Shown here piece by piece: positions 33,823 through 53,233 of a DNA stretch of 64,000 nucleotides. This DNA is from Chloroflexota bacterium. GTDB lineage: Bacteria; Chloroflexota; Anaerolineae; Aggregatilineales; Phototrophicaceae. The number at the start of each line of letters is the position of its first letter. The first letter of the stretch is position 1. The notes below the pieces were generated by a model. It was not told the DNA's origin. It was given only the letters and a program-made list of their open reading frames with translations, and did not search any database. Both the position numbers and the translations under genes were made by a program. The stretch lies in the NCBI GenBank assembly GCA_016223085.1, contig JACRPS010000013.1, positions 8,978 through 72,977 on the forward strand, in the 5' to 3' direction.

Positions 33823-33844
33823 CATACTATCGTTACCAAAGAGC

Positions 33845-33968
33845 AGGTGAAGGTGCGACCGCGCTGAACGGCGTGGCGCACAACGGGGGAAGTCCGGTGC
33901 AAGTCCGGCGCTGTCCCGCAACGGTAATCCCGGTATAACCGGGGAAGCCCGATTACCCGCCTTCACTT
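33845..33968 (+). ncRNA. Cobalamin (B12) riboswitch
   Basis: The element has the highly conserved core of this class: GTGCAAGTCCGGCGCTGTCC, then CCGCAACGGTAA (about 33916-33927), a variable hairpin CCCGGTATAACCGGGG, and AGCCCGATTACCCGCC. The outer stem P1 can form between GTGAAGG (33847-33853) and CCTTCAC (33960-33966). It precedes a BtuF-BtuC-BtuD importer, the standard target. Binding of adenosyl- or hydroxocobalamin should lower expression. Confidence 0.93.
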
Positions 33969-34030
33969 ACGACTCGAGTACCACCTTCGCGGACAAGGGG
34001 GCCGGTCATGACGTTTGTCTCGCCATCCTC

Positions 34031-34126: not shown

Positions 34127-34198
34127 GTTGGGAGGATCGCCCCGGTGCGGCAGGTGGCGCTTGTGGTTGCTCCATTACTCGCACCAGGAGGTTCTACC

Positions 34199-35380
34199 AT
34201 GAAACACCGTTTGCTCGTCTTTGTGTTCGCGCTGGCGCTGCTGCTGGCGCCGTCGCTGCTGGCTGCACAGGAGACCAATCTGACCGATGGCTGCGTGGAC
34301 AGCTACGACCCGGACGTGGATTACTTCCCGCAGAAAGTCACCATTACCAGCGCGACCGGCTTTAATGTCGAATATTTCAACAATTACAAACTTGTGACTG
34401 TCAGCACGCCCTGGCAGGGCGCGGAAGAACCGGTTCAGTACGTGCTGGTGCAGTGTGGCACGCCCGCGCCGGACAACGTGGATGTGCCCGTGATCGAAGT
34501 GCCGGTGCAGCGTTTTGTCAGCATGTCCACCACCTTTATCCCACACATCGTCACTCAGGGTTTGCTGGACCGGGTTGTGGCGGTAGATACCGTCGGCTAT
34601 ACCAGCAACGAAGCAGTGCTGGCGCGACATGAAGCGGGGGATTTGCCGGAAGTTGGCAGCGGCGGCAGTGGTACCGACCCCAACATCGAACTGCTGGTAG
34701 ACCTCGAACCTGATCTGGTGATGACGCAGAAGTTCAGCCCGGACGACAAGGGTTTTGCGCTGATCGAGCAGGCTGGCCTGCCGGTGGTGCTGAACGCCGA
34801 CTTCCTCGACACGTCGCCATTGGGACAGGCGGAATGGGGTAAGTTCATTGCGCTGTTCTTTAATACGGAAGCGGTGGCGGAAGAAACGTTTGCCGGCGTA
34901 AAAGCCCGCTACGAGGATTTGAAGGCACGGACTGCCAACGTGGACAACCGTCCCTCGGTATTTGCGAACACGCCGTTTGGCGATACGTGGTACATGCCCG
35001 GCGGCAAAAGCTATCTGGCGCAACTGCTGGCGGATGCGGGCGCCGATTACCTGTGGTCAGATGACGAGTCCACCGGCAGCCTGTTCCTCGACTTTGAGAC
35101 CGTGTTTGACCGCGCCGCCGAGGCGGACTTCTGGGTGAACGTGGTTCATACCAGCCTGGATAGTCTGATCGCCGCCGACGAACGGTTTGCCGATTTCGCT
35201 GCCGTGCAGGCAGGGAATGTTTATACCAACAATGCGCGGTCCAATGCCAATGGCAGCAGCGAGTATTATGAAACCGGCGTCGCCAATCCTGACGTGATCC
35301 TGGCCAATCTGGTCAAAATCTTCCATCCCGATCTGCTGCCCGAACACGACCTGTATTATTACAAGCAGCTAGGGGAATAG
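34199..35380 (+). CDS. btuF: Cobalamin-type ABC transporter substrate-binding protein
   Basis: The 393-residue protein has a cleaved signal peptide (LLVFVFALALLLAPSLLAAQ, no lipobox), then a two-lobed class III binding domain: VQRFVSMSTTFIPHIVTQGL, NIELLVDLEPDLVMTQ and a C-terminal LPEHDLYYY. This class binds vitamin B12 or iron chelates. The B12 riboswitch in its leader makes cobalamin or a corrinoid the likely ligand. Lack of a lipid anchor is unusual for a bacterium with one membrane, so it may be held by its permease or by a wall component. AGGAGG stands 8 bases before the ATG. Confidence 0.87.
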   Translation: MKHRLLVFVFALALLLAPSLLAAQETNLTDGCVDSYDPDVDYFPQKVTITSATGFNVEYFNNYKLVTVSTPWQGAEEPVQYVLVQCGTPAPDNVDVPVIEVPVQRFVSMSTTFIPHIVTQGLLDRVVAVDTVGYTSNEAVLARHEAGDLPEVGSGGSGTDPNIELLVDLEPDLVMTQKFSPDDKGFALIEQAGLPVVLNADFLDTSPLGQAEWGKFIALFFNTEAVAEETFAGVKARYEDLKARTANVDNRPSVFANTPFGDTWYMPGGKSYLAQLLADAGADYLWSDDESTGSLFLDFETVFDRAAEADFWVNVVHTSLDSLIAADERFADFAAVQAGNVYTNNARSNANGSSEYYETGVANPDVILANLVKIFHPDLLPEHDLYYYKQLGE

Positions 35381-35384
35381 AAGT

Positions 35385-35412
35385 GTAGGGACACGATATA
35401 TCGTGTCCCTAC
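35385..35412. repeat. GTAGGG-family palindrome, perfect copy, core GATATATC
   Basis: A perfect 28-base dyad between btuF and btuC, 4 bases after the btuF stop. Confidence 0.9.
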
Positions 35413-35430
35413 ACAGTAAGACAAATCACC

Positions 35431-36567
35431 ATGCAAAAAATCACCACACCCACCACGCCGAAAATCTATACCTCCGTAGGGGCACAGCATGCCGTGCCCC
35501 TACCGACCCAGACGGTTTACCCCCGCCTCGGCGTGCGCCGGCTGGCGCTTTTGGCTCTGCTGGCCGGGTTGGTCGCGGCCTTCCTGTTGAGTCTGGCGGT
35601 GGGGTCGGTGAATATCCCGCTGCGCGAAGTCGTCACGATTCTGACTGGCGGCGAAGCATCCCGTGCTTCGTGGGAAACCATCGTCCTGAATTTCCGTCTG
35701 CCGAAAGCGATCACGGCGGTGCTGGCGGGCGCGGCGCTGGCCGTCAGCGGCTTGCAGATGCAAACCCTGTTCCGTAACCCGTTAGCCGACCCTTACGTGC
35801 TGGGCATCAGTTCCGGTGCGAGCCTGGGCGCGGCGCTGGTGGTGCTGGCCGCCGGCACCACCGGCTCGCTGCTGCTGGCGGGCATTGGCCTGCCAGGGGA
35901 TTTTGGCCTGGCAGCGGCATCCAGCCTGGGCGCGGCGCTGGTGCTGGTGCTGGTGATGCTGGTCGCCCGCCGCGTGCAGAGCGTAGTGACGCTGCTCATC
36001 CTCGGCCTGATGTTCGGCTACGTCACCAGCGCGATTGTCAGCCTGCTGATTTATTTCAGCATCGCCAACCGCGTGCAGATTTACCTGTCGTGGACGTTTG
36101 GCAGCTTTGGCGGCGTCACCTGGGGACAGATGCAGGTGTTCGCGCCGGTCATCGTGATCGGCCTTGCCGCCGCGCTGCTGCTGGTGAAGCCGCTGAACGC
36201 GCTGCTGCTGGGCGAAACCTACGCCCGCAGCCTCGGCCTGAACGTGCGCCGCGCGCGGGTTTTTATCATCGCCAGCACGGCGCTGCTGGCCGGCGCGGTG
36301 ACGGCCTTCTGCGGCCCGGTCGGTTTTCTCGGTATCGCCGTGCCGCACGTTTGCCGCGCCATCTTCGGCACATCCGATCACCGCGCGCTGGTTCCGGCTT
36401 CGATTCTGATGGGTGGCATGGTGGCGCTGCTGACGGATTGGGTGGCGCAGGTGCCGGGCAGCCAGGTCACGCTGCCACTGAACGCCGTGACCGCGCTCCT
36501 CGGCGCGCCGGTCGTCATCTGGGTCATCCTGCGCCGCCGCGCGCTCCGTTCGGCAGTGGGGGCGTGA
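35431..36567 (+). CDS. btuC: Cobalamin-type ABC transporter permease (FecCD family)
   Basis: The 378-residue protein is a FecCD/BtuC permease with about ten helices and family segments NFRLPKAITAVLAGAALAVS, GLQMQTLFRNPLADPYVLGI, and the ATPase-coupling AVTAFCGPVGFLGIAVPH. The N-terminal 27 residues contain GAQHAVPLP, which is the translation of a palindromic repeat (35476-35503), so the first part is probably not ancestral; translation might instead begin near the GTT/GTG codons just before LGVRRLALL. It pairs with the ATPase encoded 1 base later. Confidence 0.87.
   Translation: MQKITTPTTPKIYTSVGAQHAVPLPTQTVYPRLGVRRLALLALLAGLVAAFLLSLAVGSVNIPLREVVTILTGGEASRASWETIVLNFRLPKAITAVLAGAALAVSGLQMQTLFRNPLADPYVLGISSGASLGAALVVLAAGTTGSLLLAGIGLPGDFGLAAASSLGAALVLVLVMLVARRVQSVVTLLILGLMFGYVTSAIVSLLIYFSIANRVQIYLSWTFGSFGGVTWGQMQVFAPVIVIGLAAALLLVKPLNALLLGETYARSLGLNVRRARVFIIASTALLAGAVTAFCGPVGFLGIAVPHVCRAIFGTSDHRALVPASILMGGMVALLTDWVAQVPGSQVTLPLNAVTALLGAPVVIWVILRRRALRSAVGA
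35476..35503. repeat. GTAGGG-family palindrome at the 5' end of btuC
   Basis: GTAGGGGCACAGCATGCCGTGCCCCTAC minus one mismatch; read in the btuC frame it gives GAQHAVPLP. Confidence 0.85.
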
Positions 36568-36568
36568 G

Positions 36569-37669
36569 ATGAGTTATCAGTCTTCAGTCTTCAGTCTTCA
36601 GTCATCTGAACTCAGTACTCAGTACTCAGTACTCAGCACTTTCAACTCGGAACTCGGAACTCAGTACTCAGTACTCAGTACTCAGTACTTGACGATTGGC
36701 TACCGCCACCCGCGCCGCCCGCCGCGTGTGGTCGTAGAAAACATCAACGTATCGCTTAAGCCAGGCGAACTGGTCTGCCTGATCGGCCCCAACGGCGCAG
36801 GCAAATCCACACTGATGCGGACGCTGGCCGGGATGCAGCCGCCGCTGTCCGGTTCGATTTCTATAATGGGCGACGACCTCGCGGTGCTCACCCCGCGCGA
36901 TCTGGCGCAGCGCCTCAGCATCGTGCTGACCGAGCGTGTGGACGTGGGTATTCTGCCCGCTTACGCGCTGGTGGCTCTGGGGCGTTATCCTTACACCGAT
37001 TGGACAGGCGCGCTGACATCCGACGATGAGGCGATTGTCCAGTGGGCGATTGAAGCCGTTGGCGCGTCCGATCTCGCCGCGCGCAGTGTGGACGAACTGA
37101 GCGATGGCGAGCGCCAGAAAATCCTGATCGCCCGCGCGCTGGCGCAGCAGCCGGACGTGGTGCTGCTGGACGAGCCGACGGCATTCCTTGATTTACCACG
37201 CCGCGCCGAAATGATGCAGTTGTTGCGCCGCCTCGCCCGCGACACATATCGTGCGATTCTGCTTTCGACGCACGATCTCGATCTGGCGCTGCGCAGCGCC
37301 GATCAAATCTGGCTGCTGCCGAAGGGCGGCCCGCTCCAGGCCGGCGCGCCGGAAGATTTGGTGTTGAGCGGCGCGTTTGAGGCCGCTTTCCGCAGCGAAG
37401 GTGTGACCTTCGACGCTTTTACCGGCGCGTTCCGCGTGGCGGCGCAGCCTGCCGGCGTGGTGGACGTGGTGGGGGAGGGGATTCCGGCGCTGTGGACGGT
37501 GCGCGCCCTTGAACGCGAGGGTTTCTGCCCGATTCGTAACGGCGCGGACGCACCCATTCGTATCACCGTCGTAGATAACCATCGCTGGCTGGTGACGAAC
37601 AACGGCAAAACCCGGGAATACACGTCGCTGTACGAGGTGGCGGCTTTCCTTCGTTCACACCTTCCGTAA
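36569..37669 (+). CDS. btuD: Cobalamin-type ABC transporter ATPase with repeat-encoded N-terminus
   Basis: The 366-residue protein is an ABC ATPase of the BtuD/FhuC group: Walker A GPNGAGKST (73-81), signature LSDGERQKILIARAL and Walker B VVLLDEPTAFLD. Two parts are unusual. Residues 1-40 are encoded by a 7-bp repeat array and read as a 7-residue cycle (TQYSVLS); the normal ATPase start would be near LTIGYR (41). After about residue 280 an additional domain of about 85 residues (VDVVGEGIPALWTVRALERE ... EYTSLYEVAAFL) follows, which I do not recognise. It drives uptake through BtuC. Confidence 0.88.
   Translation: MSYQSSVFSLQSSELSTQYSVLSTFNSELGTQYSVLSTQYLTIGYRHPRRPPRVVVENINVSLKPGELVCLIGPNGAGKSTLMRTLAGMQPPLSGSISIMGDDLAVLTPRDLAQRLSIVLTERVDVGILPAYALVALGRYPYTDWTGALTSDDEAIVQWAIEAVGASDLAARSVDELSDGERQKILIARALAQQPDVVLLDEPTAFLDLPRRAEMMQLLRRLARDTYRAILLSTHDLDLALRSADQIWLLPKGGPLQAGAPEDLVLSGAFEAAFRSEGVTFDAFTGAFRVAAQPAGVVDVVGEGIPALWTVRALEREGFCPIRNGADAPIRITVVDNHRWLVTNNGKTREYTSLYEVAAFLRSHLP
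36572..36690. repeat. Long 7-bp repeat array inside the btuD N-terminus
   Basis: About sixteen units, first AGTTATC and AGTCTTC (three copies), then CAGTACT-type units in two runs separated by a slightly worn middle (CAACTCGGAACTCGG). Three units make seven codons, so the array stays open in all three frames of this strand for long stretches. Confidence 0.85.
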
Positions 37670-45682: not shown

Positions 45683-45853
45683 AGATGACCTCGATCCTGA
45701 ACCGCCGCATTGTATCATTTCTACGTCCGCAGAACATAGGGGATGTGGCATTACATGGCCTTACGTAATCGTTTGCGCCGAACGCGCGCTGGCTATTGTG
45801 TACAAATGGAAGGGGCAAAATAACCGAAAGTGGCCCTGCCAACAGCATGGCGA

Positions 45854-45882
45854 TTGACTTCACCGACCGTCTTTTATACACT
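45854..45882 (+). promoter_or_regulatory. Predicted promoter of the arginine operon
   Basis: TTGACT (45854-45859), 17 bases, TACACT (45877-45882); an overlapping TATACA is also present. Transcription would start near 45890, about 30 bases before the leader reading frame. Confidence 0.6.
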
Positions 45883-45917
45883 TCATGCTGTTACGGTTTA
45901 CGCGCTTGTGATCTATC

Positions 45918-46004
45918 ATGACCATCGTTTTTCAGAATAACCATCCGCCCCGCCGCAACCGTCGTCCGCAGACCGTCGAGGTCATGCCGGGATTTTGGCG
46001 TTAG
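45918..46004 (+). CDS. Putative arginine leader peptide
   Basis: A 28-codon frame (ATG to TAG) contains HPPRRNRRPQ, that is two Arg-Arg pairs within five codons (codons 12-13 and 15-16) and a final Arg. It lies between a promoter and an intrinsic terminator, upstream of argC. This is the layout of amino-acid attenuators, where ribosome stalling at Arg codons would stop the terminator from forming. The ribosome site is weak, and no such leader is known to me for this group, so the call is an inference. Confidence 0.55.
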   Translation: MTIVFQNNHPPRRNRRPQTVEVMPGFWR

Positions 46005-46033
46005 GCGCGCACGCGCACACGGCGAACTTCAGT

Positions 46034-46072
46034 CCCCCTGGCCTCAGCAGCATGGCCGGGGGGTTTTGTTTT
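46034..46072 (+). terminator. Intrinsic terminator/attenuator upstream of argC
   Basis: CCCCCTGGCC and GGCCGGGGGG pair over 10 bp (one G-T) around TCAGCAGCAT, followed by TTTTGTTTT. It lies 30 bases after the leader stop and before argC, so it must be read through for arg expression. GCCGGG at 45986-45991 can pair with CCCTGGC of the left arm (one bulge) as an antiterminator. Confidence 0.8.
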
Positions 46073-46095
46073 AGTCATCAGTCGCCAGTCTTCAG
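46073..46095. repeat. 7-bp repeat array between attenuator and argC
   Basis: AGTCATC AGTCGCC AGTCTTC AG, the same unit as near 1731 and 36572. Confidence 0.7.
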
Positions 46096-46138
46096 CCGGG
46101 TTATCGTTCGGCTGGAGACGAGCAGATGGAGAAGCAGC

Positions 46139-47143
46139 ATGGGAGATAAAATTCGAGTAGGGGTATACGGCGGGTCGGGCTATGCCGGGCAGGATTTGGT
46201 GGAAATTCTACGGCATCACCCGCAGGTTGAGCTGGTATTTGCCACGTCGGGCAAGGAAGCCGGCCAACCCGTGCCGGGCACGCACCTGACGTTTGTCGCG
46301 CCGGACGCTGCGCCGCTGGATAGCGTGGACGCCGTGTTCCTGGCGCTGCCACATCTGGCATCCGCGCCAATGGCTGCCAAAGCGCACGGTCTGGGCGTGA
46401 AGGTCATTGACCTGTCGGCGGATTTGCGCATGGATACCCCTGCGGCTTACAAACAGTGGTACGCCCACGACCACCCCAACCCGGAACTGCTGCCCACGCC
46501 CTACGGCCTGCCGGAGATTAACCGCGCCAACATTCGCGGCCAATCCGTGATCGCCGCCCCCGGCTGTTATCCGACGACAACGCTGTTAGGGCTGTACCCA
46601 CTGTTGAAAGCTCACGTCATCGAAGATGGCGCGCCGATTATCGTAGATGCCAAGTCCGGCGTCTCCGGCGCGGGACGCGACCCCAAGCCGCACCTGCATT
46701 TTGTTGAGGTGTTTGGCAACCTGTCGCCCTACAGTCCAGGGCGGTCACACCGCCACGTCGGGGAAATTGAGCAGGAAATTGCCCGGCTGAACGGCAGCGC
46801 CGGCCCGCTGATTTTTACGCCGCACCTGCTGCCGGTTGATCGCGGCCTGATGGCAAGCATCTACGTCACTCTCAAGCCAGAGTTCGATAGCGCCGAAGCG
46901 CAGTCATTGTATGAAGAGGTGTACGCCAACGAACCGCTGGTGACGGTGCTGCCTGCCGGCCAGCAGGCTACGCTGAAACACGTGGTGCGCACCAACGGCG
47001 CGGCCATCAGCCTGACGCCGGTTCTGCCGCGCTATCTGCACATCACCAGCGTTACCGACAACCTGCGCAAGGGCGCTTCCGGGCAGGCAGTGCAGTGTTT
47101 TAACCTGATGTTTGATCTACCGGAAACGATAGGGCTGCTGTAA
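46139..47143 (+). CDS. argC: N-acetyl-gamma-glutamyl-phosphate reductase
   Basis: The 334-residue protein catalyses the NADPH-dependent third step of arginine synthesis. It has the nucleotide motif GGSGYAG (11-17), the active-site Cys143 in APGCYPTTT, and the SGVSGAGR and HRHVGEIEQE segments of ArgC type 1. ATG 46139 has GGAGAAG upstream; the frame is open further but would include the attenuator. It heads a cluster with argB, argD, argJ and carA. Confidence 0.95.
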   Translation: MGDKIRVGVYGGSGYAGQDLVEILRHHPQVELVFATSGKEAGQPVPGTHLTFVAPDAAPLDSVDAVFLALPHLASAPMAAKAHGLGVKVIDLSADLRMDTPAAYKQWYAHDHPNPELLPTPYGLPEINRANIRGQSVIAAPGCYPTTTLLGLYPLLKAHVIEDGAPIIVDAKSGVSGAGRDPKPHLHFVEVFGNLSPYSPGRSHRHVGEIEQEIARLNGSAGPLIFTPHLLPVDRGLMASIYVTLKPEFDSAEAQSLYEEVYANEPLVTVLPAGQQATLKHVVRTNGAAISLTPVLPRYLHITSVTDNLRKGASGQAVQCFNLMFDLPETIGLL

Positions 47144-47998
47144 ATGGCAGGCTTGAGTCCAGAACTGGCGGCAGTCGCGTTCGGGCTGCTGTCGGCACTG
47201 TCGTGGGGCGCGGGTGACTTCAACGGTGGGCTGGCGACTCGCCGCACCAGCGTGATCGGCGTGGTGTTTGTGTCACATCTGTCCGGCTGGGCACTGCTGC
47301 TGGCGCTGGCGCTGCTGACCGGCGAGCCGGTGCCGCCTGTCCGGGACATGGTGTGGGGTGGCGCAGGCGGTCTGGCCGGTCTGGTTGGGCTGGTCGCGCT
47401 GTACCGGGCGCTGGCCTCCGGTCACATGGGTATCGCCGCACCGGTGTCCGGCGTGCTGACGGCGGCGCTGCCGGTGCTGTTTAGCATCGGCGCGCGTGGC
47501 CTGCCCGATGCAGAACAACTACTTGGTTTCGTGCTGGCCTTTGTCGCTATCTGGCTGGTGTCGTTTGCGCGCAGCGGCGGGCGTGGAACCGCTAATGTTG
47601 GTATGGCACTTCTGGCCGGGTTTGGCTTCGGCGTGTTTTTTATCCTGCTTGACCAGATTCACACAAACGCCGTGTTCTGGCCGCTGGTGGCCGCCCGAAC
47701 GCTGTCAACAGGCACAATGGCGGCTGTCCTGCTGGCAAACCGCCGCGTTAACCTGCTGCCGCAGCAGCGCGGCCTGCTGGCGCTGGTGCTGCTGTCCAGC
47801 GCGTTAGACGTGGCGGGCAACGTGTTTTTCCTGGTCGCCACGCAGGCCGGACGGCTGGACATCGCGGCTGTCGTGTCGTCGCTGTACCCGGCTTCGACCC
47901 TGCTGCTGGCGCGCCTGTTTCTGAAAGAACATCTGTCCCGGCTGCAATTTGTCGGCGTGCTGACTGCGCTGGTTGCGATTGTGTTGATTACGCTGTAA
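47144..47998 (+). CDS. EamA/DMT-family membrane transporter
   Basis: The 284-residue protein has ten predicted helices in two EamA repeats (start AVAFGLLSALSWGAGDFNGG; second copy LLAGFGFGVFFILLDQIH) and ends in LTALVAIVLITL. DMT transporters often export amino acids or metabolites. It begins directly after the argC stop with no gap, inside the arginine cluster, so export of arginine, ornithine or a related intermediate is a reasonable guess. Confidence 0.85.
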   Translation: MAGLSPELAAVAFGLLSALSWGAGDFNGGLATRRTSVIGVVFVSHLSGWALLLALALLTGEPVPPVRDMVWGGAGGLAGLVGLVALYRALASGHMGIAAPVSGVLTAALPVLFSIGARGLPDAEQLLGFVLAFVAIWLVSFARSGGRGTANVGMALLAGFGFGVFFILLDQIHTNAVFWPLVAARTLSTGTMAAVLLANRRVNLLPQQRGLLALVLLSSALDVAGNVFFLVATQAGRLDIAAVVSSLYPASTLLLARLFLKEHLSRLQFVGVLTALVAIVLITL

Positions 47999-48008
47999 AG
48001 GAGTGCCG

Positions 48009-48761
48009 ATGGCTCAGCCGGTGGTGATTAAAATCGGCGGCAACGAGATTGACGACCCGGCGTTTCTGGCCGAACTCGCGCCCGCCATCAGGAGCGTGGC
48101 CGCGCCGGTCATCGTCGTGCATGGGGGCGGGCGGGAGATTTCCGCCTTGCAGCAGGTGATGGGTATCCAGCCGCGTTACCTGGACGGCGTGCGCGTGACC
48201 GACGCGCCATCACTGGCGGTGGTCGAAATGGTGCTGGCCGGTATCGTCAATAAACGATTAGTGCGTTATCTGCTGGAAGGCAGCCTGGACGCACTTGGCG
48301 TCAGCGGCGTTGACCGGGGACTCGTCCGCGCTGAAAAAATGCCGCATCCTACCGAAGATATGGGCTTCACCGGGCGCGTCGTCAGCGTGCGTGGAGATGT
48401 GCTGCGAGAATGGCTGGCGCAGGGCGTCACACCCGTGATCGCGCCGGTATGCCTGGGGGAAGGCAGCAGCCTGAACGTGAATGCCGATCACGTGGCCGGG
48501 GCGGTGGCGGCGGCAGTCAAAGCCAGCCGGATGGTGTTCCTGACCAATGTCGAAGGCGTGCTGGTGAACAGCCAGCGCGCCGCCACGCTGACGCCGGAAC
48601 AGGCCGAAGCATTGATCGCGGATGGCATAGTTTTCGGCGGCATGATTCCGAAGGTACGAACAGCATTACACGCGCTGGACGAAGGTGTGCCGGAAGCGAT
48701 GATTACGAACCTGGCCGGGTTGAAGGCCGGAACGGGAACGGTTTTCCGTCATACGATGTAG
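48009..48761 (+). CDS. argB: Acetylglutamate kinase
   Basis: The 250-residue protein is an amino-acid kinase: VIKIGGNEIDD, the glycine loop IVVHGGGREIS, RYLDGVRVTD, LNVNADHVAGAVAAAV and a final FGGMIPKVRTALHAL. It phosphorylates N-acetylglutamate. Short length and lack of an N-terminal helix match forms not inhibited by arginine, which would leave transcription control as the main brake. AGGAG lies 5 bases before ATG 48009; a GTG 6 bases upstream is also in frame. The TAG stop is part of a palindromic repeat. Confidence 0.93.
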   Translation: MAQPVVIKIGGNEIDDPAFLAELAPAIRSVAAPVIVVHGGGREISALQQVMGIQPRYLDGVRVTDAPSLAVVEMVLAGIVNKRLVRYLLEGSLDALGVSGVDRGLVRAEKMPHPTEDMGFTGRVVSVRGDVLREWLAQGVTPVIAPVCLGEGSSLNVNADHVAGAVAAAVKASRMVFLTNVEGVLVNSQRAATLTPEQAEALIADGIVFGGMIPKVRTALHALDEGVPEAMITNLAGLKAGTGTVFRHTM

Positions 48762-48862: not shown

Positions 48863-49450
48863 ATGACGGATTATCCTGACGAAAAAGCCCTGGTAGAGGA
48901 ACTGTACGCGCTCATCCGCTACGTGTATCGCCGGAAGCTGGCCGAAGAAATCATCCGGGCGTTCGAGGATGCGTTTCAAACCCGGTCGCCGGAAGAACGG
49001 CTGGCGATCTGCGAGCAGTGGATTGATTTTTACCGGGCGCACCGTTACAAGAAGGCGATGCGCCGCCGCCGCCCGACCAGTCGGGAGCGCATGACGCCCT
49101 GTTCGGCCTGCGGCTACCCGGTGTCGCACCGGCATCACCTGTGGGACGTGGCGACACACGGCGAAAACAAAGTCACGGTGCAGTTGTGCGCCAACTGCCA
49201 CGAACTGCACCATCTGCTGTATAACGTGCTGGCGCGAGATTCCGAGCACAGCCGCAAGCTGGCGCTGACGGTGCTGGCGTCGGAACGGGTGTCGCCGCAG
49301 GCGGTGCAGCAGCTTGTAGGCTGGTGCCGCGCGATCATGCGCTACGAGGTTGAAAACGGCTGGCTGGAAGGGTACAAACTCTCCGACCAGTGGCTGGACG
49401 AAAAGCTCAAGTGGAGCGACTACCGGCAGCGGGTCGAAAGCCGCGTTTAA
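48863..49450 (+). CDS. HNH-like zinc protein within the arginine cluster
   Basis: The 195-residue protein is not assigned to a named family. Its middle has a metal-binding, HNH-nuclease-like pattern: CSACGYPVSHRHH, then LCANCHELHHLLYN, giving two CxxC pairs and the clustered histidines. The first 80 residues are helical and basic (KKAMRRRRPTSRERM), the C-terminal part is helical. No homing-type motif is seen, and it does not interrupt another gene. A stretch TATAAT at 48821 may belong to its own promoter, so it could be expressed apart from the arg genes. Confidence 0.72.
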   Translation: MTDYPDEKALVEELYALIRYVYRRKLAEEIIRAFEDAFQTRSPEERLAICEQWIDFYRAHRYKKAMRRRRPTSRERMTPCSACGYPVSHRHHLWDVATHGENKVTVQLCANCHELHHLLYNVLARDSEHSRKLALTVLASERVSPQAVQQLVGWCRAIMRYEVENGWLEGYKLSDQWLDEKLKWSDYRQRVESRV

Positions 49451-49590: not shown

Positions 49591-50749
49591 ATGGTAGAAA
49601 TTCCGACGAACCAGCAGGTCGTTTGTGCTGATGCACGGCGAAGGCGTCCATCTGTTTGACGCGGACGGCAAAGCCTATCTCGACTGGGTGGCAGGTATCG
49701 CCGTCAATGCGCTCGGTTACGGCGACGCCGAGCTGACACACGCCATCCAGCGCGCCGCCAACAACGGCCTGATTCATACCAGCAACCTGTATTACACCGC
49801 GCCGCAGGTTGAACTGGCAAGGCTGCTGGTGGAAAAAACCACCTTCGCTGACCGGGTGTTTTTCACCAACAGCGGCACGGAAGCCAATGAGGGCGCGATT
49901 AAATTTGCCCGTAAAGTGGCGTATGAAAAAGGGTTAAAAGACAAAGTTGAAATCGTCTGCTTTTCCGGCGCGTTTCATGGCCGGACGATGGGTTCGCTGG
50001 CGCTGACGCCGCGCGAGAAATATCAGAAGCCGTTCCAGCCGTTGATGCCCGGCGTCGTCGTGGCCGAGTACAACAACCTGGACAGCGCGAAGGCCGCAGT
50101 TTCCAACAGGACCGCCGCCGTGATGATCGAGCCGGTGCAGGGCGAAGGCGGTATTTACGCCGCCAGCGACGAGTTTTTGCGCGGCCTGCGTGAATTGTGC
50201 GACCAGTACGACGCGCTGCTGATCTATGACGAAGTGCAGTGCGGCATGGGGCGCACCGGCACGCTATGGGCGTATGAACCCAGCGGCGTTGCGCCAGATA
50301 TGCTGACGGCGGCCAAGCCGCTGGCCGGCGGTCTGCCTATCGGCGCGATTCTGATGACCGAAGCCGTCGCCAGTGCCATGCACCCCGGCGAACATGGTAC
50401 GACCTTCGCCGGCGGCCCGCTGGTGACGGCTGCCGCGCAGGTGGTGCTGAACCGCGTCAGCCAGCCGGAATTTCTGGCGCACGTGCGCGAGGTGGGCGCG
50501 TACCTGATGGAACGCCTGGCGGAGATCAACAGCCCGCTAATTAAGGAAGTGCGCGGGCGCGGCCTGATGGTCGGCCTGGAACTGACCATTGATGTATCCA
50601 AAGTGGTTGAAGCGGGCTACGAACACGGACTGATTCTGGTCAACGCAGGAACAAACGTGATTCGCTTCGTGCCGCCATTGATTGTCGAAAAGCAGCACGT
50701 GGACGAACTGATTGAGAAACTCACGGCGATTCTGACCGGCATGGCATAA
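49591..50749 (+). pseudogene. argD: Acetylornithine aminotransferase, 5' end disrupted
   Basis: From about 49625 the frame is a good PLP-dependent acetylornithine aminotransferase: GEGVHLFDADGKAYLDWVAG, TNSGTEANEGAIKFAR, LIYDEVQCGMGRTG, and the PLP lysine in AAKPLAGGLPIGA. A strong ribosome site (AGGAGAAGGGGG) and an ATG lie at 49591, starting MVEIPTNQQVV, but that frame is shifted by one from the rest and about 15-20 residues normally found before GEGV are missing. A frame-shifting deletion near 49618-49624 explains this. A GTG at 49625 could give a 374-residue product lacking the N-terminus, so residual activity is possible. I mark it as disrupted rather than dead. Confidence 0.75.
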
Positions 50750-50762
50750 GGTGTATTCTGCT

Positions 50763-50790
50763 GTAGGGGCACGGCATGCCGTGCCCCTAC
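50763..50790. repeat. GTAGGG-family palindrome, perfect copy, core GGCATGCC
   Basis: Perfect 28-base dyad between argD and argJ. Confidence 0.9.
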
Positions 50791-50814
50791 CCATGTTTAA
50801 GGATGAGACAAACG

Positions 50815-52041
50815 ATGGTTGACGTTTTACCCACCATTTCGCGCGTACCCGGTTTTCAGGTCGCGGGCGTGGCCTGCGGCCTGAAGAAAAACGGCGCGCT
50901 CGACTTCACGCTGATCGTGAGCGATACGCCGTGTACCGCAGCCGGCGTATTTACGACCAACCAGGTGAAGGCCGCGCCGGTGCTGGTGGACATGGAACGG
51001 CTGAAACGGAATCCTGACCGCATCCGCGCCGTGGCAATTAACGCCGGCTGTGCCAACGCCTGCACCGGGCAGCAGGGGATAGACAATGCGTTACAGACGG
51101 CGCGCTGGGTGGCGGAACGCATCGGCTGTGCCGAGGACGAAGTGCTGGTCATGTCCACCGGCGTGATCGGGACACAACTTCCGATGGACAAAATCCGGCG
51201 CGGCATTGATCTGGCGGTCGAGTCGCTGAGCGAGAATAACTGGGAAACCGCCGCTCGCGCCATCATGACGACTGACACACGCCCGAAAATGGCGTCGGTG
51301 AACGTTGCAACGGAAAACGGCCCGTACACCGTTGCGGGCATTGCCAAAGGTGCGGGCATGATCGCACCCAACATGGCAACGATGCTGGGGCTGCTGGTGA
51401 CGGATGCTTATCAATCTCCGGCATCGCTCGAAGTGCTACTGCGTCAGGCTGCCGATGCGTCGTTTAACCGAATTGTGGTAGATGGCGATATGAGTACCAA
51501 CGACACGGTGCTGCTGCTGGCGAACGGCCAGGTGGGCGTGATTGAAGCATCAGCAGCAGCCCTTCCCGATGCCGTTCTTTCGGTTAGCCGCAAGCTGGCG
51601 CAGAACATCGTGCGGGATGGAGAGGGCGCGACAAAATTTATCACCGTACACATCACCGGCGCGCCGGATAACGAAACCGCCCGTATTATCGCCAACACGA
51701 TTGCCACTTCGCCGCTGGTCAAAACCGCGTTTTTTGGCAACGATGCCAACTGGGGACGCATTGTCGCGGCGGCAGGTCGTGCAGGCATTCCTTTACAACC
51801 TGAAAAGCTGAGCCTTTGGATTACACCCGGTGAAGAATATGGGACAAGGCTCGATTCGCTCCTGCTGTTTGAGCAGGGGATGCCGACCCATTACAGCGAA
51901 CAGCAGGCCGCAGCGATTATGAGCAAACCAGCAGTCAGCATTTATTTAGACTGCGGCAGCATGGGCAACGGCTGCGCCACCGTCTGGACGTGTGACCTGA
52001 GCCACGAGTACGTTTCGATCAATGCGGATTATCGGTCATAA
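50815..52041 (+). CDS. argJ: Glutamate N-acetyltransferase / ornithine acetyltransferase
   Basis: The 408-residue protein is ArgJ, which passes the acetyl group from acetylornithine to glutamate and closes the acetyl cycle. The self-cleavage site is in GAGMIAPNMATMLG, between Ala188 and Thr189; Thr189 becomes the nucleophile. Other marks are CTAAGVFTTNQVKAAPV, AINAGCANACTG and VDGDMSTNDT. Its presence means acetylornithine need not be hydrolysed by ArgE. ATG 50815 is chosen by position of the family start; AAGGA lies about 11 bases upstream. Confidence 0.95.
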   Translation: MVDVLPTISRVPGFQVAGVACGLKKNGALDFTLIVSDTPCTAAGVFTTNQVKAAPVLVDMERLKRNPDRIRAVAINAGCANACTGQQGIDNALQTARWVAERIGCAEDEVLVMSTGVIGTQLPMDKIRRGIDLAVESLSENNWETAARAIMTTDTRPKMASVNVATENGPYTVAGIAKGAGMIAPNMATMLGLLVTDAYQSPASLEVLLRQAADASFNRIVVDGDMSTNDTVLLLANGQVGVIEASAAALPDAVLSVSRKLAQNIVRDGEGATKFITVHITGAPDNETARIIANTIATSPLVKTAFFGNDANWGRIVAAAGRAGIPLQPEKLSLWITPGEEYGTRLDSLLLFEQGMPTHYSEQQAAAIMSKPAVSIYLDCGSMGNGCATVWTCDLSHEYVSINADYRS

Positions 52042-52096: not shown

Positions 52097-53233
52097 ATGC
52101 AAGGCTGTCTGGCGCTGGAAGATGGGCGTGTGTTTGCGGGCGTGGGGTTCGGCGCGGAAGGCGTGCAGACCGGCGAACTGGTCTTTAACACCTCCATGAC
52201 CGGCTACCAGGAAATCCTCACCGATCCGTCCTATCACAAGCAGATTGTCACCATGACCGTGCCGCACGTTGGCAACACCGGCATCAATCCCGAAGACGTG
52301 GAGTCGGACCGGGTGTGGGTTGCCGGATTCGTGGTGCGGGCGCTGAGTCCGGTGGTGAGCAACTGGCGCACGCAGGGCACGCTGGACGAGTATCTTAAGG
52401 CGCAGGGGGTGATCGGCCTGAGCGAAGTGGCAACGCGGGCGCTGGTGCGGCATATCCGCGACCGGGGCGTGATGCGCGCCGCCATCGCGCATGGCGAAGC
52501 AGCCAGTGAGCCGGCGGCGCTGGTGGAACTCGCGTGCCAGTCGCCGGATATGTCTGGCTGGAATCTGGTGGACGACGTGACCTGTGCCGAAGCCTATCAT
52601 TGGACGGAACGCAGCGACCCGCAATGGTATCGCCAACATCGTTACGACCCCGCCGGCCCGCTGGTGGTAGCGTATGACTTTGGCATCAAACGCAACATCC
52701 TGCGGCTGATGACCGACCGGGGATTGCGCGTAACCGTTGTCCCTGCACAGACGCCTGCCGTCGACGTGCTGGCGCTGAACCCGGCGGGCGTCTTTCTCAG
52801 CAACGGCCCCGGCGACCCCGCCGCCGTCGGCTACGCGATTAACAACGTGCGGCAGTTGCTGGGCAAAGTGCCGGTGTTTGGCATCTGCCTGGGGCATCAA
52901 ATTCTGGGGCTGGCGCTGGGCGGGCGCACCGAGAAAATGCGCTTCGGACATCGCGGCGGCAACCAGCCGGTGCGGAACTGGCTGACCGGCGCAGTCGAAA
53001 TCAGCAGCCACAATCATGGCTTTGCGGTGATGCCCGACAGCGATCTCAGCGGCGCGGAGATTACCCACATCAACCTGAACGATAACACCGTTGAAGGGCT
53101 GCGCCACGTCGAACTGGGCGCGTTCAGCGTGCAGTATCACCCGGAAGCCTCGCCGGGGCCGCACGACTCCTTGTATCTATTTGATGAGTTTGTAAATCGA
53201 GTAAAATCAGGGGAAACCAAAAGCAAGGAGTAG
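52097..53233 (+). CDS. carA: Carbamoyl-phosphate synthase small (glutaminase) subunit
   Basis: The 378-residue protein releases ammonia from glutamine for carbamoyl phosphate. It has the N-terminal [17 protein letters not shown] block, and a class I amidotransferase domain with the nucleophile Cys264 in FGICLGHQ and the His/Glu pair in [18 protein letters not shown] before the ATG is a good ribosome site. It follows argJ, but carB is 1.7 kb away behind a toxin-antitoxin pair and an opposing gene. Confidence 0.96.

Follow-up and report, generated by a model that had tools for sequence, protein, structure and literature searches.

Upstream of argC in a Chloroflexota bacterium of the class Anaerolineae, within a 64,000-nucleotide stretch of one contig that was analyzed as a whole (the window), we identified a candidate transcription attenuator for arginine biosynthesis. 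The element is read as a ribosome-mediated attenuator that would sense arginyl-tRNA, a reading to which we assign a probability of about 0.92; it had been proposed in a first-pass annotation of this DNA and is strongly supported by comparison with related genomes. Its parts, their conservation and complementarity, the codon bias of the leader, and a second copy in the same genome are features of the sequence, while ribosome stalling, termination, and the response to arginine are predictions built on them.

Organization of the argC leader and the downstream genes

The genome (G000; 6.0 Mb in 37 contigs) carries the leader frame between a divergent MFS transporter gene and argC, and the leader features described here lie on the forward strand. 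A sequence scan identified a sigma-70-like promoter at 45854-45882, composed of TTGACT (45854-45859), a 17-nt spacer, and TACACT (45877-45882); it is the single such site in the 601 bases scanned (45700-46300), with 0.3 expected. A TTGAC/-10-like site is also found upstream of the leader in 42 of the 54 curated regions described below (window included), as compared with 29 of 1080 base shuffles; this favors transcription that begins ahead of the leader. The leader peptide frame spans 28 codons at 45918-46004 (MTIVFQNNHPPRRNRRPQTVEVMPGFWR, then the stop codon), and no strong Shine-Dalgarno sequence was seen before it on inspection by eye. Arginine occupies four of codons 12-16, with Arg12, Arg13, Asn14, Arg15, and Arg16 encoded by CGC CGC AAC CGT CGT (45951-45965; the Arg codons begin at 45951, 45954, 45960, and 45963), and a further arginine, Arg28, precedes the stop codon.

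The intrinsic terminator extends over 46034-46072 and consists of a 10-bp stem (46034-46043 with 46054-46063, including one T-G pair), a 10-nt loop, and TTTTGTTTT at 46064-46072, with a calculated energy of -22.3 kcal/mol. Between the sensing codons and the terminator lie the putative alternative pairing segments. Segment 2 (GAGGTC, 45978-45983), which coincides with codons Glu20-Val21 of the leader frame, forms a duplex with GGCCTC at 46040-46045 and is the main antiterminator strand; a second helix is contributed by GGG (45989-45991), which from locus comparison and alignment pairs with CCC at 46036-46038. Segment 3 (46034-46045) thus comprises both the 5' arm of the terminator and the antiterminator partner. 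Segment 1 (GACC, 45971-45974), placed by alignment and by the state model below, is positioned to pair with the GGTC of segment 2 (45980-45983), and this hairpin, which the first-pass annotation had not named, would complete a four-segment layout.

The first-pass annotation had put the promoter, the 28-codon frame with Arg12, 13, 15, 16 and its terminal arginine, and the 10-bp stem with its T-run in the same places, and its naming of the downstream gene as argC is borne out by a TIGR01850 score of 337 bits (cut-off 233.6). It had also assigned the antiterminator role to GCCGGG at 45986-45991. That sequence is present at the position given, and comparison of the 54 loci replaces it as the main strand with GAGGTC plus GGG, so that only its GGG keeps a role, as the short second helix.

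Taken by itself, the window leader is unexceptional. An automatic terminator scan that accepts only loops of 3-8 nt found none in it, folding of the whole leader gave z = 0.09, and the segment 2:3 duplex did not exceed shuffled versions of the segment in strength (z = -0.6). The case for an attenuator rests on comparison.

The genes that follow belong to the arginine pathway. The first structural gene, argC, starts at an ATG at 46139 (46139-47143) and is followed on the same strand by an EamA-family transporter gene (47144-47998; PF00892), which possibly encodes an amino-acid exporter controlled together with the operon, and by argB (48003-48761; TIGR00761), argD (49625-50749, start codon uncertain; TIGR00707), argJ (50776-52041; NF003802, TIGR00120), and carA (52097-53233; TIGR01368). 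With carA the run of arginine genes ends, ahead of a frame on the opposite strand; carB is found further downstream, beyond that frame. A frame inside the operon (48863-49450) with Cys/His motifs (CSACGYPVSHRHH) matched no family over cut-off.

Other loci of this genome were also inspected. At the three OTCace_N (carbamoyltransferase) loci (L214-L216), a scan of 420 nt revealed no Arg leader, and a crude scan of about 1.5 kb at the Chorismate_bind and HMGL-like loci (L274-L277) found no Trp or Leu/Ile/Val attenuator. A second ArgC-like gene (C26:9676-10683, L001; 37% identical) has a gene of the HMGL-like family (C26:12683, L276) about 2 kb away, and the pair perhaps belongs to a LysW-type lysine pathway. 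Elsewhere in the window, a cobalamin riboswitch (RF00174) at 33834-33978 lies just upstream of frames (34145-37669) that resemble, by eye, a periplasmic binding protein, a permease, and an ATPase.

Conservation of the leader and terminator

An argC-like match was found in 56 of 61 genomes of relatives (the window's own included). Removal of 9 of 72 loci (L006-L077) that duplicated the same contigs left 63 distinct argC regions, drawn from 50 of the relative genomes and 13 further named records. An Arg-rich frame followed by an intrinsic terminator is present in 54 of these in a curated set, for which the Arg tracts were chosen with a motif written by hand for each locus; the automatic counts given below ignore these motifs. 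The distance from the end of the curated Arg motif to the terminator is 58-84 nt. The element directly precedes argC in 53 of the 54 and in the remaining one (L013, G014) precedes an inserted gene. Nine regions appeared leaderless at first look (L014, L017, L020, L021, L022, L027, L029, L036, and L040), and for three of these (G003, G004, and G009) the whole element was found before a gene inserted ahead of argC. Both parts are thus present in 57 of the 63 regions, and the comparison of relatives' argC upstream regions that the first-pass annotation had called for does not refute its proposal. The four loci with an inserted gene between attenuator and argC (L013, L017, L020, and L178, from G014, G003, G009, and G004, respectively) come from one genus, and their attenuators lie about 1.1-1.6 kb upstream of argC; this position ahead of an inserted gene ties the element to the transcription unit and not to argC itself. 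Six regions lack the element over the upstream sequence covered: it was not observed within 2.8-4.1 kb upstream in G012, G029, and G034 (L022, L027, and L040), in the upstream stretch scanned in G033 (L029) and G017 (L036), or in G011 (L021), on a short contig that ends 482 nt upstream of argC.

A script that counts a region only when an Arg-rich frame and a terminator are both found and are complementary to each other matched 49 of the 63 regions and missed 14, as compared with 0 of 189 and 1 of 315 shuffles. A covariance model built from the element (R1) was run on 151 genomes of the order and, among the matches listed, gave a match at E<1e-3 in 102. Of those inspected, three (G029:C14, G031:C3, and G071:C105) look like chance; G031 and G071 each contain another, real match, and the match in G041 precedes argG. 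Among the secondary matches, L174 is the argC attenuator of G071 itself, and L168, L169, L171, L175, L176, L177, L182, and L183 were rejected as chance-like, as they have no Arg leader or no arg gene.

In the class sample, 66 of 80 genomes gave a match. The 27 best-scoring loci from outside the window's family were used, and the element was recovered in 22 of them, weakly so for L225, with a laxer script (three Arg in eight); L238 and L244 show it by eye, the gene start of L237 is misplaced, and L236 and L242 lack it. In a sample of 28 loci from the phylum, the laxer script gave four matches (L246, L247, L249, and a weak one, L268), and the gene start was re-identified in only 9 of the 28, so that absence in the other 19 is poorly tested. 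L246, L247, and L249 represent one family (f72) outside the class, with genomes of 6.1-6.3 Mb. In other phyla the stricter script matched 3 of 58 argC loci. Their duplexes reach only about -7 kcal/mol, and their peptides, rich in lysine and arginine and nearly identical to one another, are unlike the leaders. One record titled Pleurocapsa minor GSE-CHR-MK-17-07R (JAHHHY010000001.1, L060) carries an argC and leader of the Anaerolineae type, and its name is probably wrong.

Alternative pairing of the leader and the terminator

To evaluate the antiterminator, the 36 nt after the Arg motif were paired, at each of the 54 curated loci, with that locus's own terminator sequence (5' arm and loop). The native duplexes average -19.2 kcal/mol, as compared with -12.9 kcal/mol when partners from other lineages are substituted (n 2054 swaps), -11.6 for shuffled sequences, -5.7 for an upstream stretch, and -9.7 for the 36 nt before argC. 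The native duplex beats every swap in 25 of the 54 loci, ranks in the top 5% in 34, and has z below -2 relative to shuffles in 35. L072 and L075 do hardly or no better than their swaps, and L064 forms a weak duplex (-9.4 kcal/mol) and no antiterminator in the state model. From the end of the curated Arg motif to the start of the longest antiterminator run there are 3-22 nt (median 9).

The pairing strands vary by family while staying complementary. Most of the window's family uses GAGGTC:GRCCTC, with GAGATC:GATCTC in L032 and L063 and CAGGTC:GACCTG in L030, while GGTCTGG:CCAGACC is found in L031 and L033, GAGGTTCG:CGAACCTC in L043, GGGGTTCG:CGAGCCCC in L042, and ACAGTGTGT:ACACACTGT in L077. 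Among the closest 28 sequences, six pairs of the terminator stem have changed on both sides, a number reached by 0 of 500 shuffles. The antiterminator in these sequences is 91.4% paired and mostly invariant, with two pairs changed on both sides (reached by 124 of 500 shuffles), and the GGG:CCC helix is paired in 92.9% of cells with no covariation; the swap test between lineages was used for the antiterminator because there is too little variation inside the closest family. The segment 1:2 hairpin, of only 4 bp, is paired in 88.4% of cells (shuffled mean 85.6, reached by 1 of 500), and its covariation is weak, with a change on both sides at a single pair, in two sequences.

Arginine specificity and codon choice

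The same script was run for each of the 20 amino acids. Across the 63 regions it matched 49 for Arg, 6 for Pro, 3 for Val, 2 for Ala, 1 for Ser, and none for the rest. In the class set (n=24, the 27 loci minus L237, L238, and L244, for which the gene start was not placed) it matched 21 for Arg, 4 for Pro, and at most 2 for every other amino acid. Dinucleotide shuffles matched for Arg in 4 of 192 cases for the class set, beside the 1 of 315 given above for the 63 regions.

The codons of the Arg tract were compared with those of the same locus's argC in the 36 of 54 loci that have a full argC. CGT and CGC together account for 161 of 179 tract Arg codons as compared with 316 of 500 in argC, and CGT alone for 81 of 179 as compared with 71 of 500. 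CGG is found in only 2 of 179, as compared with 130 of 500 in argC, and AGG in 9 of 179 as compared with 20 of 500. Per-locus tests agree in direction, and the P values overstate independence because the sequences are related. One tRNA reads CGU, CGC, and CGA. A tract that avoids CGG and favors CGU points to sensing of charged tRNA, and the bias suggests that a single tRNA-Arg isoacceptor is read, though CGG, which could pair with the C-rich arm of the terminator, may be avoided for that reason instead.

The codon choice bears on the strongest rival to tRNA sensing, in which the Arg-rich nascent peptide, or free arginine or ornithine in the exit tunnel, would arrest the ribosome. Peptide arrest has precedents in the fungal arginine attenuator peptide and in E. 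coli SpeFL, and the closest family does conserve the peptide beyond its arginines (RRRSRRPxTxEVxxGF). A Salmonella leader with two consecutive Arg codons, which likewise controls the gene downstream (PMC6386406), also speaks for it. Outside the closest family, however, the residues after the tract change together with the pairing segment (QTNPVWQG, TQMRFETR, TTSHRSGW, and APAISGPA), and mainly the Arg run is kept. Selection among synonymous codons would also be unexpected if the peptide were the signal, with the reservation on CGG pairing noted above. Taken together, we regard peptide arrest as unlikely.

RNA families and other explanations for the terminator

A riboswitch or T-box, in which a metabolite- or protein-binding RNA would control the terminator and the short frame would be incidental, would equally be served by a terminator with an alternative pairing before argC, and arginine T-boxes are described in other bacteria in the consulted sections of PMC1262725. 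Against it, Rfam 15 gave no match in the window leader at the gathering threshold, T-box, riboswitches, Trp_leader, and His_leader included (five matches to unrelated families at E<=10 are far below threshold), the alignments show no conserved core beyond the Arg tract, the pairing segments, and the terminator, and the frame is specific for arginine, with at most 6 regions matched for any other amino acid. We consider such an RNA very improbable. Still less credible is a constitutive terminator that ends a small upstream transcript, with argC served by a promoter downstream of 46072: the terminator is strong, but the sole sigma-70-like site in the 601 bases scanned for that type precedes the leader, as such a site commonly does in relatives, and a bare terminator leaves the Arg tract and segment 2 unexplained.

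Ribosome-state model and proposed mechanism

For the tRNA-sensing attenuator, we modeled folding of the window leader made up to 46052, before the 3' arm of the terminator, with an assumed ribosome footprint of 18 nt upstream and 14 nt downstream of the A site. The probability of the antiterminator is 0.96 for a ribosome stalled at Arg12, 0.88 at Arg13, 0.72 at Arg15, and 0.98 at Arg16. With the ribosome on the stop codon it falls to 0.04, and the segment 1:2 hairpin then has a probability of 0.93. Over the 54 loci the model gives a mean of 9.9 segment 2:3 pairs in the stalled state and 3.7 at the stop codon. The stalled state exceeds the other by more than one pair in 45 loci; in the remaining 9 stalling brings no clear gain, with 8 level (within 1 bp) and 1 opposite. 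The predicted release of a strand for the left terminator arm by stalling at codons 12-16 therefore stands in the model, except that the strand is chiefly GAGGTC.

The full-length leader at equilibrium favors the terminator in every ribosome state of the model, so that control must be kinetic. In a ribosome-free leader before the 3' arm is made, the antiterminator has a modeled probability of 0.97. Because it forms with no ribosome present, the modeled contrast is due to the ribosome that has reached the stop codon; readthrough is the predicted default in the absence of translation, whereas in the textbook case the default is to terminate. Segment 2 would be released by a stall at any upstream position, and the specificity for arginine therefore rests on the codons.

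In the proposed mechanism, RNA polymerase would start at the promoter at 45854-45882 and transcribe the leader, while a ribosome translates the leader frame behind it. A shortage of charged tRNA-Arg is predicted to stall this ribosome at the Arg codons, and at Arg15 or Arg16 the assumed footprint would also cover the GACC of segment 1. Segment 2, aided by GGG, would then pair with segment 3 (GGCCTC and CCC) once the latter is made, the terminator would come too late, and argC-EamA-argB-argD-argJ-carA would be transcribed. When arginine is plentiful, the ribosome would reach the stop codon, where it adjoins segment 2 and covers GGG; the 1:2 hairpin would form, followed by the terminator, and transcription would end before argC.

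A second attenuator before argG-argH

A second leader in the same genome, MSAKLNCLTRRIRRRWTDLKSGGLSVPARG with its stop codon, precedes argG-argH (G000:C35:32403-32531, L166) and is followed by a terminator, CCCCGGACTGAAGGCAGTTCGGGG, with the pairing AGTCCGG:CCGGACT. It has the Arg tract and layout in common with the argC element, with different pairing sequences. R1 secondary matches were accepted before argG-argH in five genomes (G000, G001, G030, G046, and G035). In total, an Arg leader and terminator precede argG in 17 of 49 genomes examined, a count made up of 9 of 30 loci, 5 of 16 loci, and 3 found by the covariance model, and including L188 and L206, with fewer arginines, and L190, with only 51 nt upstream. 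By coordinates, argC is followed within a few kb by argG, on the same strand, in G049, G054, G043, G042, and G053; because of this placement, argG may need no attenuator of its own in these genomes.

ArgR in the lineage

Arginine biosynthesis in well-studied bacteria is under the ArgR repressor. The ArgR domain (PF01316) had no match at E<=0.001 in the window's genome or in any of 80 genomes across the class, with a control search positive in 9 of 14 well-known genomes. At the same threshold it was found in 7 of 61 relatives, of which 3 are below cut-off, two of them in the window's own genus (E 7e-4 and 9e-4), and 4 are over cut-off, all in genus g28. These four (G043, G049, G054, and G059), the only relatives with ArgR over cut-off, also keep the Arg attenuator, and the two may coexist in that genus.

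Relation to known systems

Leader-peptide attenuation is a mechanism found in textbooks for a few amino acids, with ribosome-mediated transcription attenuators described for the trp, his, leu, thr, ilv, and phe operons. The window element shares with these the promoter, a leader with codons for the pathway amino acid, the 2:3 and 3:4 pairings together with a putative 1:2 hairpin, and the intrinsic terminator; it differs in that the sensed amino acid would be arginine, in the spacing given above between the Arg motif and the antiterminator run, and in that no Rfam family matched. The fungal arginine attenuator peptide is eukaryotic, acts on translation, and works by peptide arrest at high arginine; it too is an upstream frame through which arginine biosynthesis responds to arginine, whereas stalling upon starvation is proposed here. 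ArgR/AhrC places the same pathway under arginine control and differs as a protein repressor.

Attenuators with a leader peptide and a terminator and antiterminator have also been identified by comparative genomics outside the Proteobacteria, in Actinobacteria, where the sections of that report consulted describe attenuators for trp, trpS, and leuS and candidates for ilvB and cys (PMC1262725). In the same sections the actinobacterial arginine operons appear without conserved RNA structure upstream, and arginine in other species is placed under T-boxes, not attenuators. The Salmonella orf34-speF leader is similar in its short frame with consecutive Arg codons, in which the speed of translation reports arginine; as outlined in the consulted part of that report, it differs in targeting an ornithine decarboxylase through Rho-dependent termination, RNase G decay, and RBS occlusion (PMC6386406), while the window element is a predicted intrinsic-terminator attenuator of arginine biosynthesis. 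Other attenuator-like motifs are described in PMC8632094, none of them, in the text consulted, an arginine-codon attenuator of arg genes, and Chloroflexi appear in the consulted text of PMC4833913 only as a group with noisy data. The first-pass annotation knew of no described arginine leader peptide in these bacteria, and our search of titles and abstract openings in the open-license literature found neither an arginine attenuator of bacterial arginine biosynthesis nor one in Chloroflexi, though a description elsewhere is possible.

Implications for arginine control in Anaerolineae

The mechanism is of a known kind; no precedent was found, in the titles and abstract openings searched, for its specificity (arginine, for arginine biosynthesis) or for its lineage. 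On balance, we lean toward a picture in which much of Anaerolineae would control arginine biosynthesis without ArgR, through attenuators before argC and, in part of the lineage, before argG, of separate origin or divergence, that read the one tRNA-Arg isoacceptor for CGU/CGC/CGA. The shunning of CGG in the sensing tract would follow from reading that isoacceptor. According to theory, the codons chosen by attenuators are those for which tRNA charging responds most strongly to starvation.

If correct, this would be the first ribosome-mediated attenuator of a bacterial arginine biosynthesis operon, as far as the same search of the literature reaches. If class-wide, an arginine attenuator would add a new amino acid to those known for the mechanism and carry it into a group that is largely uncultured, would suggest how the class manages without ArgR, and would offer a natural test of the theory of starvation-sensitive codons. 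Its simple signature is usable to seek further arginine-controlled genes in these genomes.
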